A stretch of DNA of 34,797 nucleotides, taken from Thermosinus carboxydivorans Nor1. Lineage in GTDB: Bacteria; Bacillota; Negativicutes; Sporomusales; Thermosinaceae. Location of the stretch: positions 5,001 through 39,797 of the forward strand of contig NZ_AAWL01000022.1 in assembly GCF_000169155.1 (NCBI RefSeq), given 5' to 3'. Numbering within the stretch: the stretch's first letter is position 1; every line of letters starts with the position of its first letter. Position numbers and translations under genes: made by a program. Below, in pieces: positions 1,467-16,385 of this stretch. The notes beneath the pieces are model-generated. The model was given only the letters and a program-made list of their open reading frames with translations, searched no databases and was not told the origin of the DNA.

Positions 1467-1500
<34 letters not shown>

Positions 1501-1508
1501 TGGTACGT

Positions 1509-1555
<47 letters not shown>

Positions 1556-1880
1556 GGGCGCAAGAGACTTGAGAGGAGCTGCTCCTAGTACGAGAGGACC
1601 GGAGTGGACGGACCAATGGTGTACCAGTTATACCGCCAGGTGTACAGCTGGGTAGCTACGTCCGGAACGGATAAACGCTGAAAGCATCTAAGCGTGAAAC
1701 CGGCCTTAAGATGAGGTCTCTCACAACGGAAGTTGGTAAGGCCCCTTGCAGAAGACAAGGTAGATAGGCCAGGAGTGTAAGGCGGGCAACCGCTTGAGCG
1801 GACTGGTACTAATCGGCCGAGGGCTTGACCTAAAAAGGGCAAAATACGAAAATGCGTGAAAATCTTCTGTGCAGTTTTGA

Positions 1881-1924
1881 GGGAAAGTAACCACCACTTT
1901 CCGATTACCACTTATTACTTTCCC
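1881..1924 (+). repeat. Inverted repeat with two alternative pairings in the 23S-5S spacer
   Basis: GGGAAAGTAA (1881-1890) is perfectly complementary to TTACTTTCCC (1915-1924), giving a 10-bp stem. Within the same arm, GGAAAGT (1882-1888) can instead pair with a nearer ACTTTCC (1896-1902), giving a 7-bp stem with a 7-base loop. The two structures are mutually exclusive. The spacer lies between the 23S 3' end and 5S, so a role in pre-rRNA processing is possible, but that is inference. Confidence 0.6.
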
Positions 1925-1934
1925 AAAATAAATA

Positions 1935-2051
1935 TCCGGTGTCGATAGCTACGGGGATCCACCTGTTCCCATACCGAACACAGAAGTTAAGCCCGTAAAC
2001 GCCGAAAGTACTTGGCTGGAGACGGCCTGGGAGGATAGGTAGACGCCGGTA
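1935..2051 (+). rRNA. rrf: 5S ribosomal RNA
   Basis: About 117 bases with the 5S signature: GGGGATCCACCTGTTCCCATACCGAACACAG-type loop B/helix III sequence, then AAGTTAAGC, and a helix I formed by CCGGTG (1936-1941) with CGCCGG (2044-2049). It lies about 104 bases after the 23S 3' end and only three bases before the tRNA gene, so all three are parts of one transcript. The exact ends are uncertain by one or two bases. Confidence 0.95.
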
Positions 2052-2054
2052 TAT

Positions 2055-2130
2055 TCCTCGGTAGCTCAGTCGGTAGAGCAATCGGCTGTTAACCGATCGG
2101 TCGCAGGTTCGAGTCCTGCCCGGGGAGCCA
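2055..2130 (+). tRNA. tRNA-Asn (anticodon GTT)
   Basis: A complete 76-base cloverleaf. The acceptor stem is 2055-2061 with the matching 3' strand (one U-G pair), the D stem GCTC/GAGC is 2064-2067 with 2076-2079, and the anticodon stem ATCGG/CCGAT encloses loop CTGTTAA. The anticodon GTT sits at 2088-2090. The T arm GCAGG-TTCGAGT-CCTGC follows, and the 3' CCA is encoded (2128-2130). It sits immediately downstream of 5S, a common tRNA-Asn position in Firmicutes rRNA operons. Confidence 0.97.
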
Positions 2131-2137
2131 ATTTTGG

Positions 2138-2180
2138 AAACAAGCCATGCCACGTCGGGTATGGCTTGTTTTAATTTTTT
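2138..2180 (+). terminator. Rho-independent terminator of the rRNA operon
   Basis: AAACAAGCCAT (2138-2148) pairs perfectly with ATGGCTTGTTT (2161-2171) around a 12-base loop and is followed by TTAATTTTTT. It lies 7 bases after the tRNA CCA, so it ends the rRNA transcript and insulates the hydrogenase operon downstream. Confidence 0.9.
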
Positions 2181-2223
2181 AAAAAACTGAATTAGAAATG
2201 CTTCATGTTTTTTAAGAAAGTTA

Positions 2224-2252
2224 TTGCTGATAGATTAGTTATCCGGTACAAT
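2224..2252 (+). promoter_or_regulatory. Sigma-A-type promoter of the hydrogenase operon
   Basis: TTGCTG (2224-2229) and TACAAT (2247-2252) are separated by 17 bases, close to the housekeeping consensus. The expected start of transcription is near 2259. It is the only good promoter match between the rRNA terminator and the first hydrogenase gene. Confidence 0.7.
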
Positions 2253-2268
2253 AAATAAAGAGAGAGTG

Positions 2269-2284
2269 AGTGAAAGTTTTCACT
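2269..2284. promoter_or_regulatory. Rex-like operator (perfect inverted repeat)
   Basis: AGTGAAAGTTTTCACT is a perfect 7-2-7 palindrome. Its core GTGAA-N4-TTCAC matches the centre of the Rex operator (TTGTGAA-N4-TTCACAA). It sits about 10 bases downstream of the predicted transcription start, where a bound repressor would block elongation. Rex is an NADH-sensing repressor that controls hydrogenase and fermentation genes in many Firmicutes. The outer bases differ from consensus, so another dyad-binding regulator remains possible. Its placement argues that the first gene starts at 2308 and not at 2266. Confidence 0.5.
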
Positions 2285-2307
2285 TTATCCTTGCTGGGGG
2301 CGATAGT

Positions 2308-2550
2308 GTGGTCAAATTATCAATTTGTATTGGGAGTGCCTGCCATCTTCGCGGTGCCCACGGAGTGCTAAGCGCTTTTAACGCCCTAATTGATAAGTAC
2401 CAAGTACAAAGCAATGTCGACCTGGAAGGTAGCTTTTGTCAGGGAAAGTGCACCGAAGGAGTAGTCATCAAGATTGATGACGAGGTTATTACTAATGTTA
2501 CTAAGGATAAGGTGTACGATATTTTTATGGAAAAAATATTGGGGCGGTGA
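2308..2550 (+). CDS. Thioredoxin-like [2Fe-2S] ferredoxin (NuoE C-terminal type)
   Basis: An 80-residue protein starting at GTG 2308, with a G-rich Shine-Dalgarno stretch (GGGGG, 2296-2300). An upstream in-frame GTG at 2266 would place the palindromic operator inside the coding region, so it is less likely. The protein has the cysteine pattern C-x4-C (CIGSAC) near the N-terminus and C-x3-C (CQGKC) in the second half, as in the [2Fe-2S] domain of NuoE/HymA proteins, but lacks the extra N-terminal helical domain of full NuoE. It is the first gene of the hydrogenase operon, with 14 bases to the next start. Likely role: electron carrier or redox partner of the PAS-containing hydrogenase homologue. 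A paralogue lies at 5413-5649. Confidence 0.85.
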   Translation: MVKLSICIGSACHLRGAHGVLSAFNALIDKYQVQSNVDLEGSFCQGKCTEGVVIKIDDEVITNVTKDKVYDIFMEKILGR

Positions 2551-2564
2551 CTTAGGTGACATAT

Positions 2565-4250
2565 ATGAAAGTGCTTACTACACTACAAGCCAACTGCAAG
2601 GATTGTCACCGCTGCGTCCGGGTTTGTCCCATAAAAGCCATTGGCATTAGAAGGGGCCAGGCCAGACTGGTAGATGATAAATGTATCTTGTGCGGCAAAT
2701 GCGTGGTAGAGTGCCCGCAGCAAGCCAAGCAAGTTATTTCGCAAATTCCCGTAATTCAGGATGCTTTGGCGCAGGGACGGCTGGTTGTTATGAGTTTGGC
2801 GCCATCCTTTGTGGGGGCGTTTCCGGCTTTTTCGCCGGAACAATTTTTCGCTGCCGTTCGTAGTTTGGGCTTTACGGTCATTGAAGAAACGGCTGTAGGG
2901 GCAGAAGTTGTTTCGCAAATATACAGCTCACTGATAACCACCGCCGACAAACCGGTTATTTCCGCCTGTTGTCCCGTGGTGGTTAGACTTGTTGAAAGGT
3001 ATTACCCTGAACTGGTTGGTAATCTGGCCCCCGTTGTTTCGCCGATGCAGGCCCATGGGCGCATCCTCAAAAAACGGTATGGGAATAACGCTTTTGTTGT
3101 TTTTGCTGGTCCTTGCATTGCCAAGTTTGCTGAGCTGGCAGAGGCTAACAGCGCGATTGATGCGGTTATTACTTTTCAACAGCTTAATACCTGGCTAAAG
3201 CAGCAAGCGAACCACAATACGCCCTGTCGTTTCCAGACTAACATGGCAAGCAGCGGCCGTTATTTTCCTATTGCCGGCGGCATTCTCAAAACCTGTGGGC
3301 ATACTAGCGCCGTTGATGCCGAGATTGTTGCCGTGGATGGCATCGAAAACTGTATACAGGTCTTTGACGGGATAATTAAAGGGCAGTTTGCGCCTAAGTT
3401 CGTGGAAGCATTAGCCTGTACCGGCGGCTGCATCAATGGTCCAGCTATGGTATCGGGATTATGTTTGCCGGCTCGCCGCGCAAAAGTTATTTCTTTTGCC
3501 GTCCAGGGTGGGCAAAAGCCACTAACAACGCCACCGGATCTCGATTTTAAAAAAGTTCATCAGGCCAAACCAGTCCAGCTGGGGCAGCCATCAGAACAGG
3601 AAATCCGGGAAATATTGAGTCAGATTGGCAAGTTGACGCCGGCCGACGAAAAAAATTGCGGCGCTTGTGGTTATAATTCGTGTCGCGAGAAAGCGATTGC
3701 CGTATACCAGGGCATGGCGGAAATTGACATGTGTGTACCCTACATGCGGTCCCGAGCCGAGTCTTTTGCCAACATGATTGTTGATAATTCGTTGAACGCC
3801 ATTATTGTCGTAAATGATAAGTTAATTATTCAAGAATTTAATCCGGCAGCCGAGCAAATGTTGCAAAAGCGCCAGGATTGGGTCCGTGGTGCCAGCCTGA
3901 CGGAAATTATGGATTGCGCGGAAATTATCAGGGCAATTAATTCAGGCGTAAAAGTGCCCAGACACCGGGTGGAACTTCCTTTATACGGCCTTATTACCGA
4001 ACAGATGATTATTCCGTTGCCGGACGAAGGCTTAGCCATCCTTATAATTTCCGATATAACCGAGCAGGAGAAACGGGCCAAAGAATTGGAACAGGTTAAG
4101 CTGGAGACGGTCGAAAAGGCGACAGATATTATTAACAAACAGATGCAAGTTGCTCAGGAAATAGCCGGTCTGCTCGGCGAAACGACAGCCGAAACCAAGT
4201 CGGCTTTGTTAGAACTTATCTGGTTGCTAAAAGGCAAGGGGGCCAAGTGA
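2565..4250 (+). CDS. PAS-domain [FeFe]-hydrogenase homologue, sensory (group C) type
   Basis: A 561-residue protein. ATG 2565 is chosen because AGGTGA (2554-2559) sits 5 bases upstream; GTG 2556 is the alternative. Domain order: two [4Fe-4S] motifs (Cys 11/14/17/21 and 40/43/46/50); the H-cluster domain with SACCP (133-137), GPCIAK (Cys184, Lys187) and EALACTGGC (Cys285, Cys289); a C-x2-C-x4-C...C cluster domain (Cys 365/368/373/390); a PAS domain (about 405-510); and a C-terminal helix suited to signalling. All four cysteines expected to hold the H-cluster are present, and the proton-path cysteine is kept. The two methionines found near the cluster in catalytic enzymes are Gly and Leu here. 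This architecture matches the PAS-bearing hydrogenases of hfs-type operons (Thermoanaerobacterium), thought to sense rather than bulk-produce H2. The overlap TGATG couples it to the phosphatase gene. Confidence 0.88.
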   Translation: MKVLTTLQANCKDCHRCVRVCPIKAIGIRRGQARLVDDKCILCGKCVVECPQQAKQVISQIPVIQDALAQGRLVVMSLAPSFVGAFPAFSPEQFFAAVRSLGFTVIEETAVGAEVVSQIYSSLITTADKPVISACCPVVVRLVERYYPELVGNLAPVVSPMQAHGRILKKRYGNNAFVVFAGPCIAKFAELAEANSAIDAVITFQQLNTWLKQQANHNTPCRFQTNMASSGRYFPIAGGILKTCGHTSAVDAEIVAVDGIENCIQVFDGIIKGQFAPKFVEALACTGGCINGPAMVSGLCLPARRAKVISFAVQGGQKPLTTPPDLDFKKVHQAKPVQLGQPSEQEIREILSQIGKLTPADEKNCGACGYNSCREKAIAVYQGMAEIDMCVPYMRSRAESFANMIVDNSLNAIIVVNDKLIIQEFNPAAEQMLQKRQDWVRGASLTEIMDCAEIIRAINSGVKVPRHRVELPLYGLITEQMIIPLPDEGLAILIISDITEQEKRAKELEQVKLETVEKATDIINKQMQVAQEIAGLLGETTAETKSALLELIWLLKGKGAK

Positions 4251-5395
4251 TGTACCCGCTGCATGCCGAAGTCGGTGTTGCGCAATTGTCCAAAACAGGA
4301 GAAGAATTATGTGGCGATAAAGTTGAAGTATTACGCACCCCAACAGATACTATTATCGTTCTTTCGGATGGGCTGGGTAGCGGTGTAAAGGCGAACATTC
4401 TCGCCACCCTTACGACGAAAATAGCCTCTTCTATGCTTAAAAGAGGTATTCCGCTCGAAGATGTTGTCGATACCATTGCCAAGACTTTACCGGTTTGCCG
4501 CCAACGGAAAATTGCTTATTCAACTCTCCATATCATCAAGGTTGCTGCTGATGGCTTAACAACCATCGTGGAATTTGACTGCCCGTCTACGTTTTTGCTC
4601 CGCGCCGGCAAGGTAGTTCCTTTTCCTACCACGGAAAAAATTGTCGGCGGCAAGGTCATAAAAGAAGGTCAACTTTATTTGCAGGAAAATGATATAATAG
4701 TTGGAGTAAGTGACGGGGTAATCCATGCCGGTATTGGCGGTCTTTTGAAACTGGGGTGGGGATGGCAGGGAATAGCCAGCGAGCTTGTTGGCGATAGTGT
4801 GGCCATGACGGCTGAAAATATCAGCCGGAAAATTATGGCTTGTTGTGAAGGCTATTATGCCGGCCATCCCGGCGATGACTCGACCGTGGTGGCGGTAAAA
4901 ATCCGTCAGCCGGTGCACGCCACGCTCCTAACAGGACCGCCGGCCGATCCCCGGAGTGACGAAAAAGTAGTAAAACGCTTTTTAAGCCAGCCCGGCAAAA
5001 AAATTATCGCTGGAGGCACAACAGCCAATATTGTCAGTCGCCTGACCGGCAAGCCCCTTATTGTCGCCCTGGATTATCATGACCCGGCAATTCCCCCAAC
5101 GGGGCGTATTGAGGGTATTGACCTTGTGACCGAGGGGGTATTGACGCTTAATGCCGCGGTGGAAAAACTAAAAAATCCGGCGGCGTTGGCCCATAACGGG
5201 CAGGATGGAGCGACCCGGCTGGCGAAGCTGCTGCTGTCATGTGATAAAATAGATATCTTTGCCGGCGGCGCTATTAATCCAGCGCACCAAAATCCCAATT
5301 TCCCGGCCTATATTAATATCAAAGCACAGGTTTTGTCCAAGTTGCAGTCAGTACTGGAGTCAATGGGCAAGCAAGTTAGTATTGAATGGTTTTGA
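4250..5395 (+). CDS. PP2C/SpoIIE-type serine/threonine phosphatase linked to hydrogenase
   Basis: A 381-residue protein. ATG 4250 overlaps the previous stop by one base and has AAGGGGG upstream. Residues 1-215 form a compact PP2C/SpoIIE domain. Metal-binding motifs are visible: CGD (21-23), SDGLGSG (39-45), SDGV in the middle and GDDSTVV near residue 205. A distinct C-terminal domain of about 160 residues follows (IAGGTTANIVSR, later IFAGGAINPAHQNP); I cannot assign it to a named fold. The gene sits between the PAS hydrogenase homologue and the catalytic-type hydrogenase. In hfs-type and other group C hydrogenase operons a PP2C phosphatase occupies the same place, which points to an output role: dephosphorylating an unknown target when the sensor is switched. 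The target is not visible in this window. Confidence 0.85.
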   Translation: MYPLHAEVGVAQLSKTGEELCGDKVEVLRTPTDTIIVLSDGLGSGVKANILATLTTKIASSMLKRGIPLEDVVDTIAKTLPVCRQRKIAYSTLHIIKVAADGLTTIVEFDCPSTFLLRAGKVVPFPTTEKIVGGKVIKEGQLYLQENDIIVGVSDGVIHAGIGGLLKLGWGWQGIASELVGDSVAMTAENISRKIMACCEGYYAGHPGDDSTVVAVKIRQPVHATLLTGPPADPRSDEKVVKRFLSQPGKKIIAGGTTANIVSRLTGKPLIVALDYHDPAIPPTGRIEGIDLVTEGVLTLNAAVEKLKNPAALAHNGQDGATRLAKLLLSCDKIDIFAGGAINPAHQNPNFPAYINIKAQVLSKLQSVLESMGKQVSIEWF

Positions 5396-5412
5396 TTAAG
5401 GGAGGGGACAGT

Positions 5413-5649
5413 GTGAACAATATCGTCATTGAGATTTGTGTCGGTACTTCTTGCTATCTATTGGGTGCTCAGGACTTAATCCGGGCCGTTGAGGAGCTGC
5501 CTTGCGAACAGCGTTCCCACATTGAACTCCGGGGCGTAACTTGTCTCAAAACCTGCGGCAAAGGGCCAAACGTGAGAATTGATGGTGTGGTGTTGGCTGG
5601 TATGACGCCTGAACGCCTGCTCACTATTATTCAGGACAAACTGGGGTAA
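5413..5649 (+). CDS. Thioredoxin-like [2Fe-2S] ferredoxin (NuoE C-terminal type), second copy
   Basis: A 78-residue protein. GTG 5413 is preceded by GGGAGGGG at a normal distance, so the upstream ATG at 5386 (overlapping the phosphatase end) is not needed. Cysteines follow the same C-x4-C (CVGTSC) and C-x3-C (CLKTC) spacing as the paralogue at 2308-2550, although the two differ at most other positions. It lies 17 bases after the phosphatase and 21 bases before the group-B-type hydrogenase, so each hydrogenase-like protein has its own small [2Fe-2S] partner gene directly upstream. Likely an electron-transfer subunit. Confidence 0.85.
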   Translation: MNNIVIEICVGTSCYLLGAQDLIRAVEELPCEQRSHIELRGVTCLKTCGKGPNVRIDGVVLAGMTPERLLTIIQDKLG

Positions 5650-5670
5650 TTGTTTTAGGAGGGAGAAAAT

Positions 5671-7170
5671 ATGTCGCAGGTAACGGAAGTTGTGAAAATT
5701 CGCCGTAAAGTTTTGTCTGAGATTGCGCGGTTAGCCTTTGAAGGTAAACTGCAAGATCACGTCGAGGATATCCTACACACAGTGGTAACGGAGGAAGGTC
5801 CCCGTTATCGCTGCTGCGTGCATAAAGAGCGGGCTGTCTTGAAAGACCGGATCAATCTGGCTCTGAGTCAGCCTATTAACACCGATCTTAAGGTCGCGGC
5901 GCAAAACGCATTAGAAGGCAAAATTGCTGACATGCCTTTTGTTAATGTGTTGCCTGAGGCATGTGACCGGTGTCCTATTGACAAGTTTATCGTCACCGAT
6001 GCCTGCCGCAACTGTGTTGCCCACCACTGCATCAACAGCTGTCCCAAAAAGGCGATTGCGGTAGTGCAAAACCGGGCCTTTATTGATAAGAACCGGTGCG
6101 TGGAATGTGGCCTCTGCAAAAGATCCTGCCCTTACGGCGCGATCATTGAGGTTAGCCGGCCTTGTGAACGGGCCTGCGACTTGAAGGCGGTCGTCGCCGG
6201 CGCCGACCGTCGGGCTGTAATCAATTACGATAAATGTGTACAATGTGGCGCCTGCAAAATCGCTTGTCCTTTCGGCGCTATCGGCGACCGCTCGGTGATT
6301 GTCCAGTTAATTCAGGATCTCAAGCACCACAAAAAGGTTTACGCAATTATTGCTCCTTCTTTTATTGGCCAATTCGGTCTGAAGGTCAGACCAGGACAAG
6401 TAATTAATGCCCTTAAGCAGCTTGGTTTTTACGATGTGCAGGAAGTTTCCTTTGGCGCTGACATTGTCACCGTGGAAGAGACGAAGGAGTTTGCCGCCAC
6501 TGTTCCCGGCGAACGTTCCTTTATGACCACTTCCTGTTGCCCTGCCTTCGTGGGAATGGTCGAAAAGCATTTGCCGGAGCTGAGGGATAAAGTTTCTTCT
6601 ACTGTTTCACCGATGATTGCTACCGGTAAAAGCATTAAAGTTGACGACCCCGAAGCCATTGTGGTATTCATTGGGCCGTGTATTGCCAAGAAGGTCGAGG
6701 CAGCGCGCTATGCCGGCGTCATCGATTACGTTTTGACTTTTGAGGAGCTGGCGGCGATGCTGGTGGGCGCTGGCATCAATGTAACTGAAGTGGCCGACTC
6801 CGAGTATCAGACTACCGCGTCGCGCGATGGCAATATTTTTGCGCGGGCCGGTGGTGTTGCCCAGGCAGTTGTCGATGCAGCCGCCCATCTGGCGCCCGAT
6901 GTTAATATTAAACCCCATCGCTGTGAAGGGCTTGGCAACTGCAAGGCAGCCCTTATCCAAATTCGCGATGGTAAAATTGATGCCAATCTTTTCGAAGGAA
7001 TGGCCTGCACGGGCGGTTGTGTCGGCGGTCCCGGGACGCTCACTGATTTTCGGGTTACCACCAAACTGGTCGAGAATTACGCAGCCACCGCGGCGGTTAC
7101 AACGTCGCCGGAAAACCAGGAAGCAGTTAAGGTTATCGAAAAAGGACCTATTTGGCATCACGGACATTAA
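5671..7170 (+). CDS. [FeFe] hydrogenase, group B type
   Basis: A 499-residue protein with Shine-Dalgarno TAGGAGGGAG before ATG 5671. It has an unusual N-terminal helical region (1-90), then a cysteine-rich ferredoxin part with several C-x2-C-x2-C-x3-C motifs (about 95-205), then the H-cluster domain: TSCCPAF (Cys289, Cys290), GPCIAKK (Cys337, Lys340) and EGMACTGGCVGGPG (Cys446, Cys450). The TSCCPAF / GPCIAK / TGGCVGGPG signatures and overall length fit the group B [FeFe] hydrogenases of clostridia and relatives. All proton-path and cluster-binding cysteines are present, so it is probably the catalytically active enzyme of the operon, oxidising ferredoxin to make H2 or the reverse. No HydE/F/G maturases are in this window; they must be elsewhere. 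Confidence 0.92.
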   Translation: MSQVTEVVKIRRKVLSEIARLAFEGKLQDHVEDILHTVVTEEGPRYRCCVHKERAVLKDRINLALSQPINTDLKVAAQNALEGKIADMPFVNVLPEACDRCPIDKFIVTDACRNCVAHHCINSCPKKAIAVVQNRAFIDKNRCVECGLCKRSCPYGAIIEVSRPCERACDLKAVVAGADRRAVINYDKCVQCGACKIACPFGAIGDRSVIVQLIQDLKHHKKVYAIIAPSFIGQFGLKVRPGQVINALKQLGFYDVQEVSFGADIVTVEETKEFAATVPGERSFMTTSCCPAFVGMVEKHLPELRDKVSSTVSPMIATGKSIKVDDPEAIVVFIGPCIAKKVEAARYAGVIDYVLTFEELAAMLVGAGINVTEVADSEYQTTASRDGNIFARAGGVAQAVVDAAAHLAPDVNIKPHRCEGLGNCKAALIQIRDGKIDANLFEGMACTGGCVGGPGTLTDFRVTTKLVENYAATAAVTTSPENQEAVKVIEKGPIWHHGH

Positions 7171-8000: not shown

Positions 8001-8002
8001 TA

Positions 8003-8027
8003 GGCAGGCCGAATGGCCTGCTTTTTT
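8003..8027 (+). terminator. Rho-independent terminator after yebC
   Basis: GCAGGCC (8004-8010), loop GAAT, GGCCTGC (8015-8021), then six T. A compact 7-bp GC-rich hairpin starting three bases after the yebC stop. Confidence 0.92.
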
Positions 8028-15644: not shown

Positions 15645-15661
15645 GTTTACATTTTGCCTTT
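15630..15661 (+). terminator. Perfect 14-bp hairpin at the end of the cyclo-ligase gene
   Basis: AAAGGCAAAATGTA (15630-15643), loop GGTT, TACATTTTGCCTTT (15648-15661). The left arm includes the last codons and part of the stop of the cyclo-ligase gene. There is no clean T run after it (CTATAC follows), although the right arm itself ends in CCTTT. It may be a terminator or attenuator in front of the PP2C gene, or simply a transcript-stabilising structure. Confidence 0.55.
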
Positions 15662-15680
15662 CTATACGGTGGAGAGAAGC

Positions 15681-16385
15681 ATGGAAGTAAAAATCGGCAT
15701 TGCTAAAACAAATAAATATGCGGTAAGTGAGTGCGGTGATAGCGTAGAGATAGCCGAACGACCGCGGGGCGGCATTTCGGTGATTCTGGCCGACGGGCAA
15801 GGAAGTGGCCGGGCGGCAAAAAATACCAGTTCGTTAGTTGTCAACAAGGCGGCATCACTTATCGCCGAAGGCGCTCGCGACGGCGCGGTGGCACGGGCTG
15901 TGCACGACTATCTCTATGCCATGAAGGACGGCAAGGTGTCATCTACCCTTACCATTTTAAGCAGTGATTTAGATACCCAAACAATCCTTTTTTCCCGAAA
16001 CTCAAACTGCCCCGTCCTGGTGAAGAGCCTGTACGGCATTGAGGTATTCGATCAAGAAGTCAGCCCTATTGGCGTACATAAACGGATGAAGCCGCTGATG
16101 CATGAAATGCCACTGGAAGTGGGCATGATTTTAATATCTTATTCCGATGGGATTCAGGCCGCCGGCCGCAAACGCGGACGTGTTTTCGACTTTAACTTTC
16201 TCCTGCGGCTTTTGGAAAAAAATGAACCACGTGATGCCGTCTTCATTGCCGAGAGTATTTTGGAATATGCCTTGGAACTGGATGACAACCGGGCCGGCGA
16301 TGATATGACGGTAATTGTCATGGGCATCTGTGAAGCGGAAAACCACCATAAAATCCGCAGGATTAGCGTCAGCTTTCCCTGCTAG
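15681..16385 (+). CDS. PP2C/SpoIIE-type phosphatase, single domain
   Basis: A 234-residue protein; ATG 15681 has GGAGAG upstream, and the longer frame from 15654 begins inside a hairpin. It contains only the phosphatase fold: CGD (18-20), LADGQGSG (36-43), YSDGIQ and GDDMTVIV, the metal-binding acids of SpoIIE/PP2C enzymes. The layout of these motifs closely follows the hydrogenase-linked phosphatase at 4250-5395, but this protein lacks its C-terminal domain. No sensor domain is fused. It forms a tight cluster with a P-loop protein and an HD-domain protein (spacings 12 and -28 bases). The substrate is unknown. Confidence 0.85.
   Translation: MEVKIGIAKTNKYAVSECGDSVEIAERPRGGISVILADGQGSGRAAKNTSSLVVNKAASLIAEGARDGAVARAVHDYLYAMKDGKVSSTLTILSSDLDTQTILFSRNSNCPVLVKSLYGIEVFDQEVSPIGVHKRMKPLMHEMPLEVGMILISYSDGIQAAGRKRGRVFDFNFLLRLLEKNEPRDAVFIAESILEYALELDDNRAGDDMTVIVMGICEAENHHKIRRISVSFPC

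Follow-up and report, generated by a model that had tools for sequence, protein, structure and literature searches.

A conserved sensor-phosphatase pair in an hfs-type operon of Thermosinus carboxydivorans with a probable role in hydrogen or redox signalling

The hfsABCD operon of Thermoanaerobacterium saccharolyticum encodes a PAS-bearing [FeFe]-hydrogenase (HfsB), a serine phosphatase-like HfsC and a ferredoxin-linked hydrogenase (HfsD) (PMC5707799, PMC11837493). In this organism, strains without hfsA or hfsB make about 1.8-fold more ethanol, those without hfsC and/or hfsD yield about as much as the wild type, and removal of the entire operon has no high-ethanol effect (PMC5707799). The hfsB deletion elevates hydrogenase activity and NADH-dependent alcohol dehydrogenase (NADH-ADH) activity, but not that of NADH-dependent aldehyde dehydrogenase (NADH-ALDH), a pattern that its authors read as a possible sign of post-transcriptional control; the transcripts of adhE, rex and other genes change as well (PMC5707799). 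In Thermoanaerobacterium thermosaccharolyticum, hfsD alone restores the high-ethanol phenotype to a strain without hfsABCD (PMC11837493). An eight-gene adhE-hydrogenase-sensory hydrogenase cluster of Ruminococcus albus, for which a phosphatase subunit is named, is expressed 111-fold less when a H2 consumer is co-cultured; the differences were ascribed to H2 level (PMC6776011). HydDB lists [FeFe]-hydrogenase group C3 as phosphatase-linked and putatively sensory (PMC5037454). Here we analyze a five-gene locus in a 34,797-nucleotide stretch of the Thermosinus carboxydivorans Nor1 genome (contig NZ_AAWL01000022.1, positions 5,001 to 39,797 of the forward strand; hereafter the window). The locus is an hfs-type (hfs/HydS) operon, probably for H2/redox signalling, and a further member of a kind already described. 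The preliminary description of the window stated that related hfs-type operons are known; hfsABCD genetics, H2-dependent transcription in R. albus and HydDB group C3 have covered this kind of system before.

All five open reading frames were confirmed on the + strand, in one order and with short or overlapping junctions. Pfam and NCBIfam matches bear out their description as a [2Fe-2S] protein, a PAS/H-cluster sensor, a PP2C phosphatase, a second [2Fe-2S] protein and a group-B-type hydrogenase:

2308 to 2550, + strand: HfsA-like [2Fe-2S] thioredoxin-like ferredoxin, 80 amino acids, first gene of the core trio (PF01257, E 8.7e-9)
2556 to 4250, + strand: HydS/HfsB-type sensor, 564 amino acids (Pfam domains; H-cluster cysteines)
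4122 to 4223, + strand: sensor tail, residues 523-556 (KQMQVAQEIAGLLGETTAETK...), with high column identity and retained beside PP2C when the input domain differs or is missing
4247 to 5395, + strand: HfsC-type SpoIIE/PP2C serine phosphatase, 382 amino acids (PF07228 SpoIIE, E 8.7e-15)
4910 to 5392, + strand: phosphatase C-terminal domain, residues 222-382, Rossmann-like alpha/beta in a separate model
5386 to 5649, + strand: second small [2Fe-2S] protein (PF01257, E 2.8e-10)
5671 to 7170, + strand: HfsD-type group B [FeFe]-hydrogenase (TIGR04105 FeFe_hydrog_B1, 601.5 bits against a cut-off of 450)

The GTG at 2308 agrees as a start with the 80-residue homologues of the first [2Fe-2S] protein. 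Sensor, phosphatase and ferredoxin-type hydrogenase lie in one operon, as in T. saccharolyticum. Compared by description, that operon has four named genes whereas the window has five, the extra [2Fe-2S] gene being inserted between hfsC and hfsD; this gene occupies the same place in window-type loci and accompanies the group B hydrogenase. The H-cluster cysteines, the C-terminal PAS domain and the overlapping SpoIIE/PP2C gene of HydDB group C3 all are present, and no difference was found from that group of sensory-type hydrogenases linked to a Ser/Thr phosphatase. By its domains and gene linkage, the window sensor thus is a putative C3 protein. The homologous locus of R. albus 7 on pRUMAL01 (L299:2706-11623) reads Rex-adhE-phosphotransferase-2x[2Fe-2S]-HydS-PP2C-hydrogenase, a composition that matches the reported eight-gene H2-responsive cluster (PMC6776011). 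The [2Fe-2S], HydS, SpoIIE phosphatase and hydrogenase genes follow in an order identical to that in the window, whereas the additional Rex, AdhE, APH/RIO-type phosphotransferase and second [2Fe-2S] genes upstream have no counterparts at that place in the window. The R. albus cluster is carried by a 420-kb plasmid typed as mobilizable, where the APH/RIO-type phosphotransferase gene separates adhE from the [2Fe-2S] genes.

Searches for the phosphatase covered two genome sets, 398 from across the phylum and 380 from the class. In the phylum set, 121 genomes possess a match that spans the whole protein or no less than its C-terminal domain, weaker matches being ordinary SpoIIE-type proteins; 38 of the 380 class genomes match, chiefly in the host's order and allied families. 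The closest named matches among GTDB genomes are in Selenomonadales, Sporomusaceae and metagenome-assembled genomes (MAGs) of Negativicutes. Neighborhoods were compared in 96 fetched loci and in another set, made up of 80 named loci in GTDB genomes; as the sets overlap in some organisms, their counts are not additive. The constant part across the 96 loci is the trio of [2Fe-2S] protein, HydS and PP2C, with which the GTDB set agrees, and the small [2Fe-2S] gene precedes the sensor in most loci. The exact five-gene order is conserved in relatives: it is contiguous in 11 of the 96 loci (seven in the host's class and four elsewhere), and a few more are nearly identical. The gene order exceeds chance because it recurs across the host's class and the phylum. 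The hydrogenase beside the trio varies among the 96 loci: 23 predicted operons contain group B HfsD, 34 contain HydA, usually accompanied by HydB and HydC, and many have no hydrogenase; Rex is included in 20. Thus, the core unit is the first three genes, and the output hydrogenase is exchanged freely instead of forming part of an indivisible five-gene unit. The earlier view of the module as self-contained does not withstand this variation in the output enzyme, nor the lack of a kinase gene in the operon. The concept of a sensor-to-phosphatase signal chain encoded beside a hydrogenase is supported, in that the order is conserved and the PP2C site is intact.

Linkage between sensor and phosphatase was assessed by searching the FeS-PAS-tail region of the sensor against the same 398 genomes, with E 5e-24 or better taken as a strong match. 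There were 142 strong matches in 119 genomes, and a PP2C gene is located directly downstream on the same strand in 140 of these. One of the two exceptions is the first of two tandem sensors that precede a single PP2C gene; the other has its sensor on one contig and a partial PP2C on another. The sensor-PP2C junction is most commonly a 4-nucleotide overlap (35 cases), followed by 1 nucleotide (16 cases).

The sensor comprises two [4Fe-4S] clusters (Fer4), the H-cluster domain (PF02906, E 4e-52), a C-terminal [4Fe-4S] segment (PF04060), a PAS domain, a coiled segment and a conserved tail. The PAS assignment (PF13188, residues 408-454, E 1.8e-4) is at the family cut-off with 21.8 bits. Conservation was expressed as the mean identity of the commonest residue per column in 87 aligned homologues. 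The tail (residues 523-556; KQMxVAQEIAGLLGETTAETK) is the best-conserved segment at 0.73, followed by the FeS segment (0.69), the N-terminal clusters (0.56), the H domain (0.47) and PAS (0.46). The H-cluster ligands C139, C187 and C288 are conserved in 100% of the homologues and C292 in 98%, and all four are present in the window sensor. The proton-relay position, C138 (CpI C299), is cysteine in only 52%; loss of this residue is reportedly typical of sensory enzymes (PMC10055695), and the window sensor retains it (SACCP). Longer H-cluster sensors with open frames of 730-890 codons align over the FeS or FeS-PAS part only and have no tail. By its sequence conservation and its retention beside PP2C where the input domain differs or is missing, the tail is a candidate phosphatase-docking or switch helix that would connect sensor and phosphatase. 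A physical link between these proteins had been considered not visible, as had the phosphatase target; the tail now provides a candidate for the former.

Two loci, both on MAG contigs, carry a different or no input domain. In L180, from an uncultured Desulfomonile MAG, a [2Fe-2S] protein (82 amino acids), a Cache-HAMP-receiver-PAS-tail protein (767 amino acids) and PP2C are encoded consecutively at 1473-5193. The PP2C is 46% identical to that of the window, and the C-terminal 78 residues of the sensor are 53% identical to the end of the window sensor. No PF02906 match was found in the sequence of this MAG (2.7 Mb; completeness not given). In L189, from a Planctomycetota MAG, a 187-residue PAS-tail protein without an H-cluster domain is located between the [2Fe-2S] protein and PP2C. 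A third candidate, L166, was rejected as an ordinary HydS is present in another frame. In these two cases PP2C goes with the PAS-tail region and not with the hydrogenase domain.

The PP2C active site is intact, as the metal-binding aspartates D24, D41, D156, D210 and D211 are invariant in 91 phosphatase homologues. The AlphaFold2 model (mean pLDDT 92.7) indicates a SpoIIE-like fold, with Z 25.9 and a root-mean-square deviation (rmsd) of 2.8 over 216 residues against 3pu9, and Z 25.4 and rmsd 2.6 over 213 against SpoIIE (5ucg). The window phosphatase shares the fold and the invariant metal-binding aspartates with SpoIIE, RsbU and RsbX, but differs in possessing a C-terminal Rossmann-like domain and in having no STAS or anti-sigma partner nearby. 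This second domain of ~160 residues, which the preliminary description did not mention, has no Pfam match in the window protein and nothing consistent in 93 sequences. Its conserved stretches include GGTTA, GIDLVTEG and NPAHQNP. When the domain was modelled separately (pLDDT 90.4), Foldseek returned no match at E ≤ 0.001. A second structural comparison gave matches of molybdopterin-oxidoreductase type from Z 9.8 to about 7, including FhcB (6s6y; Z 9.8, rmsd 2.8 over 114 residues), FwdB (Z about 8.4-8.9) and NuoG (7nz1; Z 8.6, rmsd 3.4 over 119), against Z 5-6 for generic Rossmann folds. The modelled domain therefore appears to resemble the Rossmann-like domain of molybdopterin-oxidoreductase-type subunits modestly more than generic folds, which is a resemblance and not a family assignment. 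The glycine-rich conserved loops suggest a small-molecule ligand. Two genomes from a single genus also encode the domain as a separate gene of ~155 codons immediately downstream of hydABC (L083:7623-8102 and L084:7445-7915), so it can act without PP2C. In several genomes that retain the upstream sensor, the phosphatase coding sequence is interrupted, either by a split into two frames or by internal stops (G274:C1:148128-149277, G341:C1:1980783-1981921, G250:C10:29006-30173 and G115:C10:4704-5600), which could reflect decay, frameshift control or sequencing error; two of these are single-contig assemblies.

A synteny survey for a recurrent kinase partner, as proposed in the preliminary description, yielded none: clustering of neighbors in about 96 loci returned Rex, housekeeping genes (yebC, ruvCAB), AdhE and transporters, and no kinase family in at least five loci. 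An APH/RIO-type phosphotransferase adjoins the module in nine fetched loci and in R. albus, usually with AdhE and Rex; it had no match in the window's genome in a search that was made without a positive control. In the host genome there is a single Pkinase-family gene; a single STAS protein passes the cut-off, and it adjoins a sporulation-type kinase. The genome also encodes five PF02906 proteins in three loci. One of these loci is a hydABC operon (L113:6470-15549, minus strand, G000:C4) with the order DRTGG, HATPase (143 amino acids), H-cluster protein, DRTGG, PHP, HydC, HATPase, [2Fe-2S], HydB, HydA and Rex, in which the H-cluster protein has no PAS domain. This regulatory set of DRTGG proteins, SpoIIAB-like ATPase, PAS-less H-cluster protein, PHP and Rex is recurrent and little described. 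The 143-residue ATPase matches SpoIIAB structures (1th8, E 5e-10) and retains the N-box E51/N55 as well as D80, G82 and G84; it is one of two small single-domain ATPases in the genome that pass the PF13581 cut-off, the other adjoining a STAS gene. An H-cluster protein and/or a DRTGG gene adjoins it in 19 of 19 fetched relatives, in most of which both are present. With kinship ignored, the SpoIIAB-like ATPase is found in 91 of 121 genomes with PP2C versus 78 of 277 without, the odds ratio is 4.6 among the 316 genomes with any PF02906 match, and by family the values are 38 of 49 versus 22 of 92. A separate locus of the host (L114:6788-8176, minus strand, G000:C13) encodes a 462-residue [FeFe]-hydrogenase-domain protein beside a pyruvate/oxaloacetate carboxylase-type gene.

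We consider it moderately probable that H2/redox signals are transmitted from HydS through the conserved tail to PP2C and then to a phosphorylated regulator. The H-cluster of HydS (HfsB) would respond either to H2 or to a redox state governed by H2 and ferredoxin, and electrons probably reach or leave HydS by way of the small [2Fe-2S] protein (HfsA). The state of the sensor would pass via the C-terminal [4Fe-4S] cluster and PAS to the conserved C-terminal helix, which would bind and gate the SpoIIE-type PP2C specified by the overlapping next gene. The substrate of the phosphatase would be a regulator phosphorylated on Ser/Thr, which would control how much of the adjacent H2-evolving enzyme (HfsD in the window) and of the ethanol branch is present or active. 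The observations behind this proposal are gene content and order, the sensor-PP2C linkage, the intact H-cluster and PP2C residues, the conservation of the tail and the two loci with different or missing inputs; from these we infer H2 as ligand, the tail-PP2C contact, the direction of gating and the phosphatase target. A role for HfsAB in holding HfsC/D in check fits, because loss of hfsA or hfsB raises ethanol and loss of C, D or all four genes does not. Several points weigh against the proposal. No interaction or phosphatase assay was found in the literature surveyed. The relay may be conformational, because the redox state of the C-terminal [4Fe-4S] cluster in a group D sensor without PAS is unchanged by H2 (PMC13104023). 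HfsC is dispensable for the high-ethanol phenotype when HfsD is supplied, since hfsD alone restores it (PMC11837493). Moreover, the proton-relay cysteine kept in the window sensor makes some turnover possible, and the tail could serve dimerisation instead.

Sensing of the ferredoxin or NAD(H) redox state by HydS, via the accessory clusters and the [2Fe-2S] protein, in place of H2 is a doubtful but credible alternative. The [2Fe-2S] protein is part of the core even beside the non-hydrogenase sensor of L180, in the MAG without a PF02906 match, and Rex often adjoins the module, whereas the 98-100% conservation of the four H-cluster ligand cysteines and the attribution of the R. albus differences to H2 level (PMC6776011) argue for H2. 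That HydS is a catalytic subunit acting with HfsD, PP2C being an incidental neighbor, is highly improbable: the SACCP motif with its proton-relay cysteine is compatible with catalysis, but roughly half of the homologues lack this cysteine, and the presence of PP2C directly downstream in 140 of 142 cases while HfsD often is absent largely refutes this explanation.

The remaining alternatives concern what the phosphatase acts upon. Direct dephosphorylation of enzymes (hydrogenase, ferredoxin oxidoreductase or AdhE) and not of a regulator would suit the selective rise in hydrogenase and NADH-ADH activities upon hfsB deletion (PMC5707799), but the free exchange of the adjoining hydrogenase counts against a dedicated enzyme substrate and the adhE, rex and other transcripts change too (PMC5707799), and we judge this unlikely. 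Similarly, it is improbable that the SpoIIAB/RsbW-like kinase of the hydABC operon and the HydS-gated PP2C act on one target, perhaps a DRTGG protein, the former adding and the latter removing the phosphate. The intact N-box of the kinase, its position with a second H-cluster protein and DRTGG proteins in that operon and in its relatives, the pairing of the genome's other small ATPase with STAS, and the co-occurrence with PP2C speak for such an opposition. However, the kinase is encoded outside the PP2C operon, both modules track hydrogen metabolism and phylogeny which inflates the co-occurrence, and 30 genomes with PP2C have no SpoIIAB-like kinase. A classic partner-switch substrate also is missing, as the only STAS protein over the cut-off adjoins the sporulation-type kinase, and the choice of the DRTGG protein as substrate is guesswork based on two invariant positions, S35 and T49.

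Upstream of the operon, the window starts with 23S rRNA, followed by 5S rRNA and a tRNA; with RNA genes in this region, the open reading frames listed for the first 2.1 kb do not represent genes. Downstream are yebC-bofC-ruvCAB, with a terminator-like site after yebC at 8002-8023. Promoter-like sites in the window are no commoner than in shuffled sequence. A Rex operator 5' of the operon was rejected, as the window has four matches at three mismatches versus 2.0 expected by chance. A second SpoIIE-family phosphatase gene (15654-16385, + strand; 243 amino acids; PF07228, E 2e-20) is flanked by a 5-formyltetrahydrofolate cyclo-ligase gene and an AAA_18-like open reading frame, upstream of secDF; a partner is not evident.

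The operon is real, conserved and mostly explained. H2 sensing and the switch between H2/acetate and ethanol in fermenting anaerobes are an old and practical question, in which HydS/HfsB is the accepted candidate sensor and the output side has been a blank so far. To this the analysis adds a candidate for the connection between sensor and phosphatase, a core of three genes whose inputs and hydrogenases are interchangeable, a second phosphatase domain without a Pfam family and one trans-encoded candidate kinase. Because the linkage and the loci with different inputs indicate a short tail and the survey names one kinase, the missing half of the pathway is directly testable. A bolder and rather unlikely proposal is that the [2Fe-2S] protein, the PAS-tail region and PP2C with its uncharacterised ligand-binding-like domain constitute a portable output cartridge with interchangeable inputs (H-cluster, Cache/receiver or none), opposed in most carriers by a kinase of SpoIIAB type that is associated with a second H-cluster protein. 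If so, cartridge and kinase together would form a hydrogen-controlled phosphorylation switch in anaerobes.

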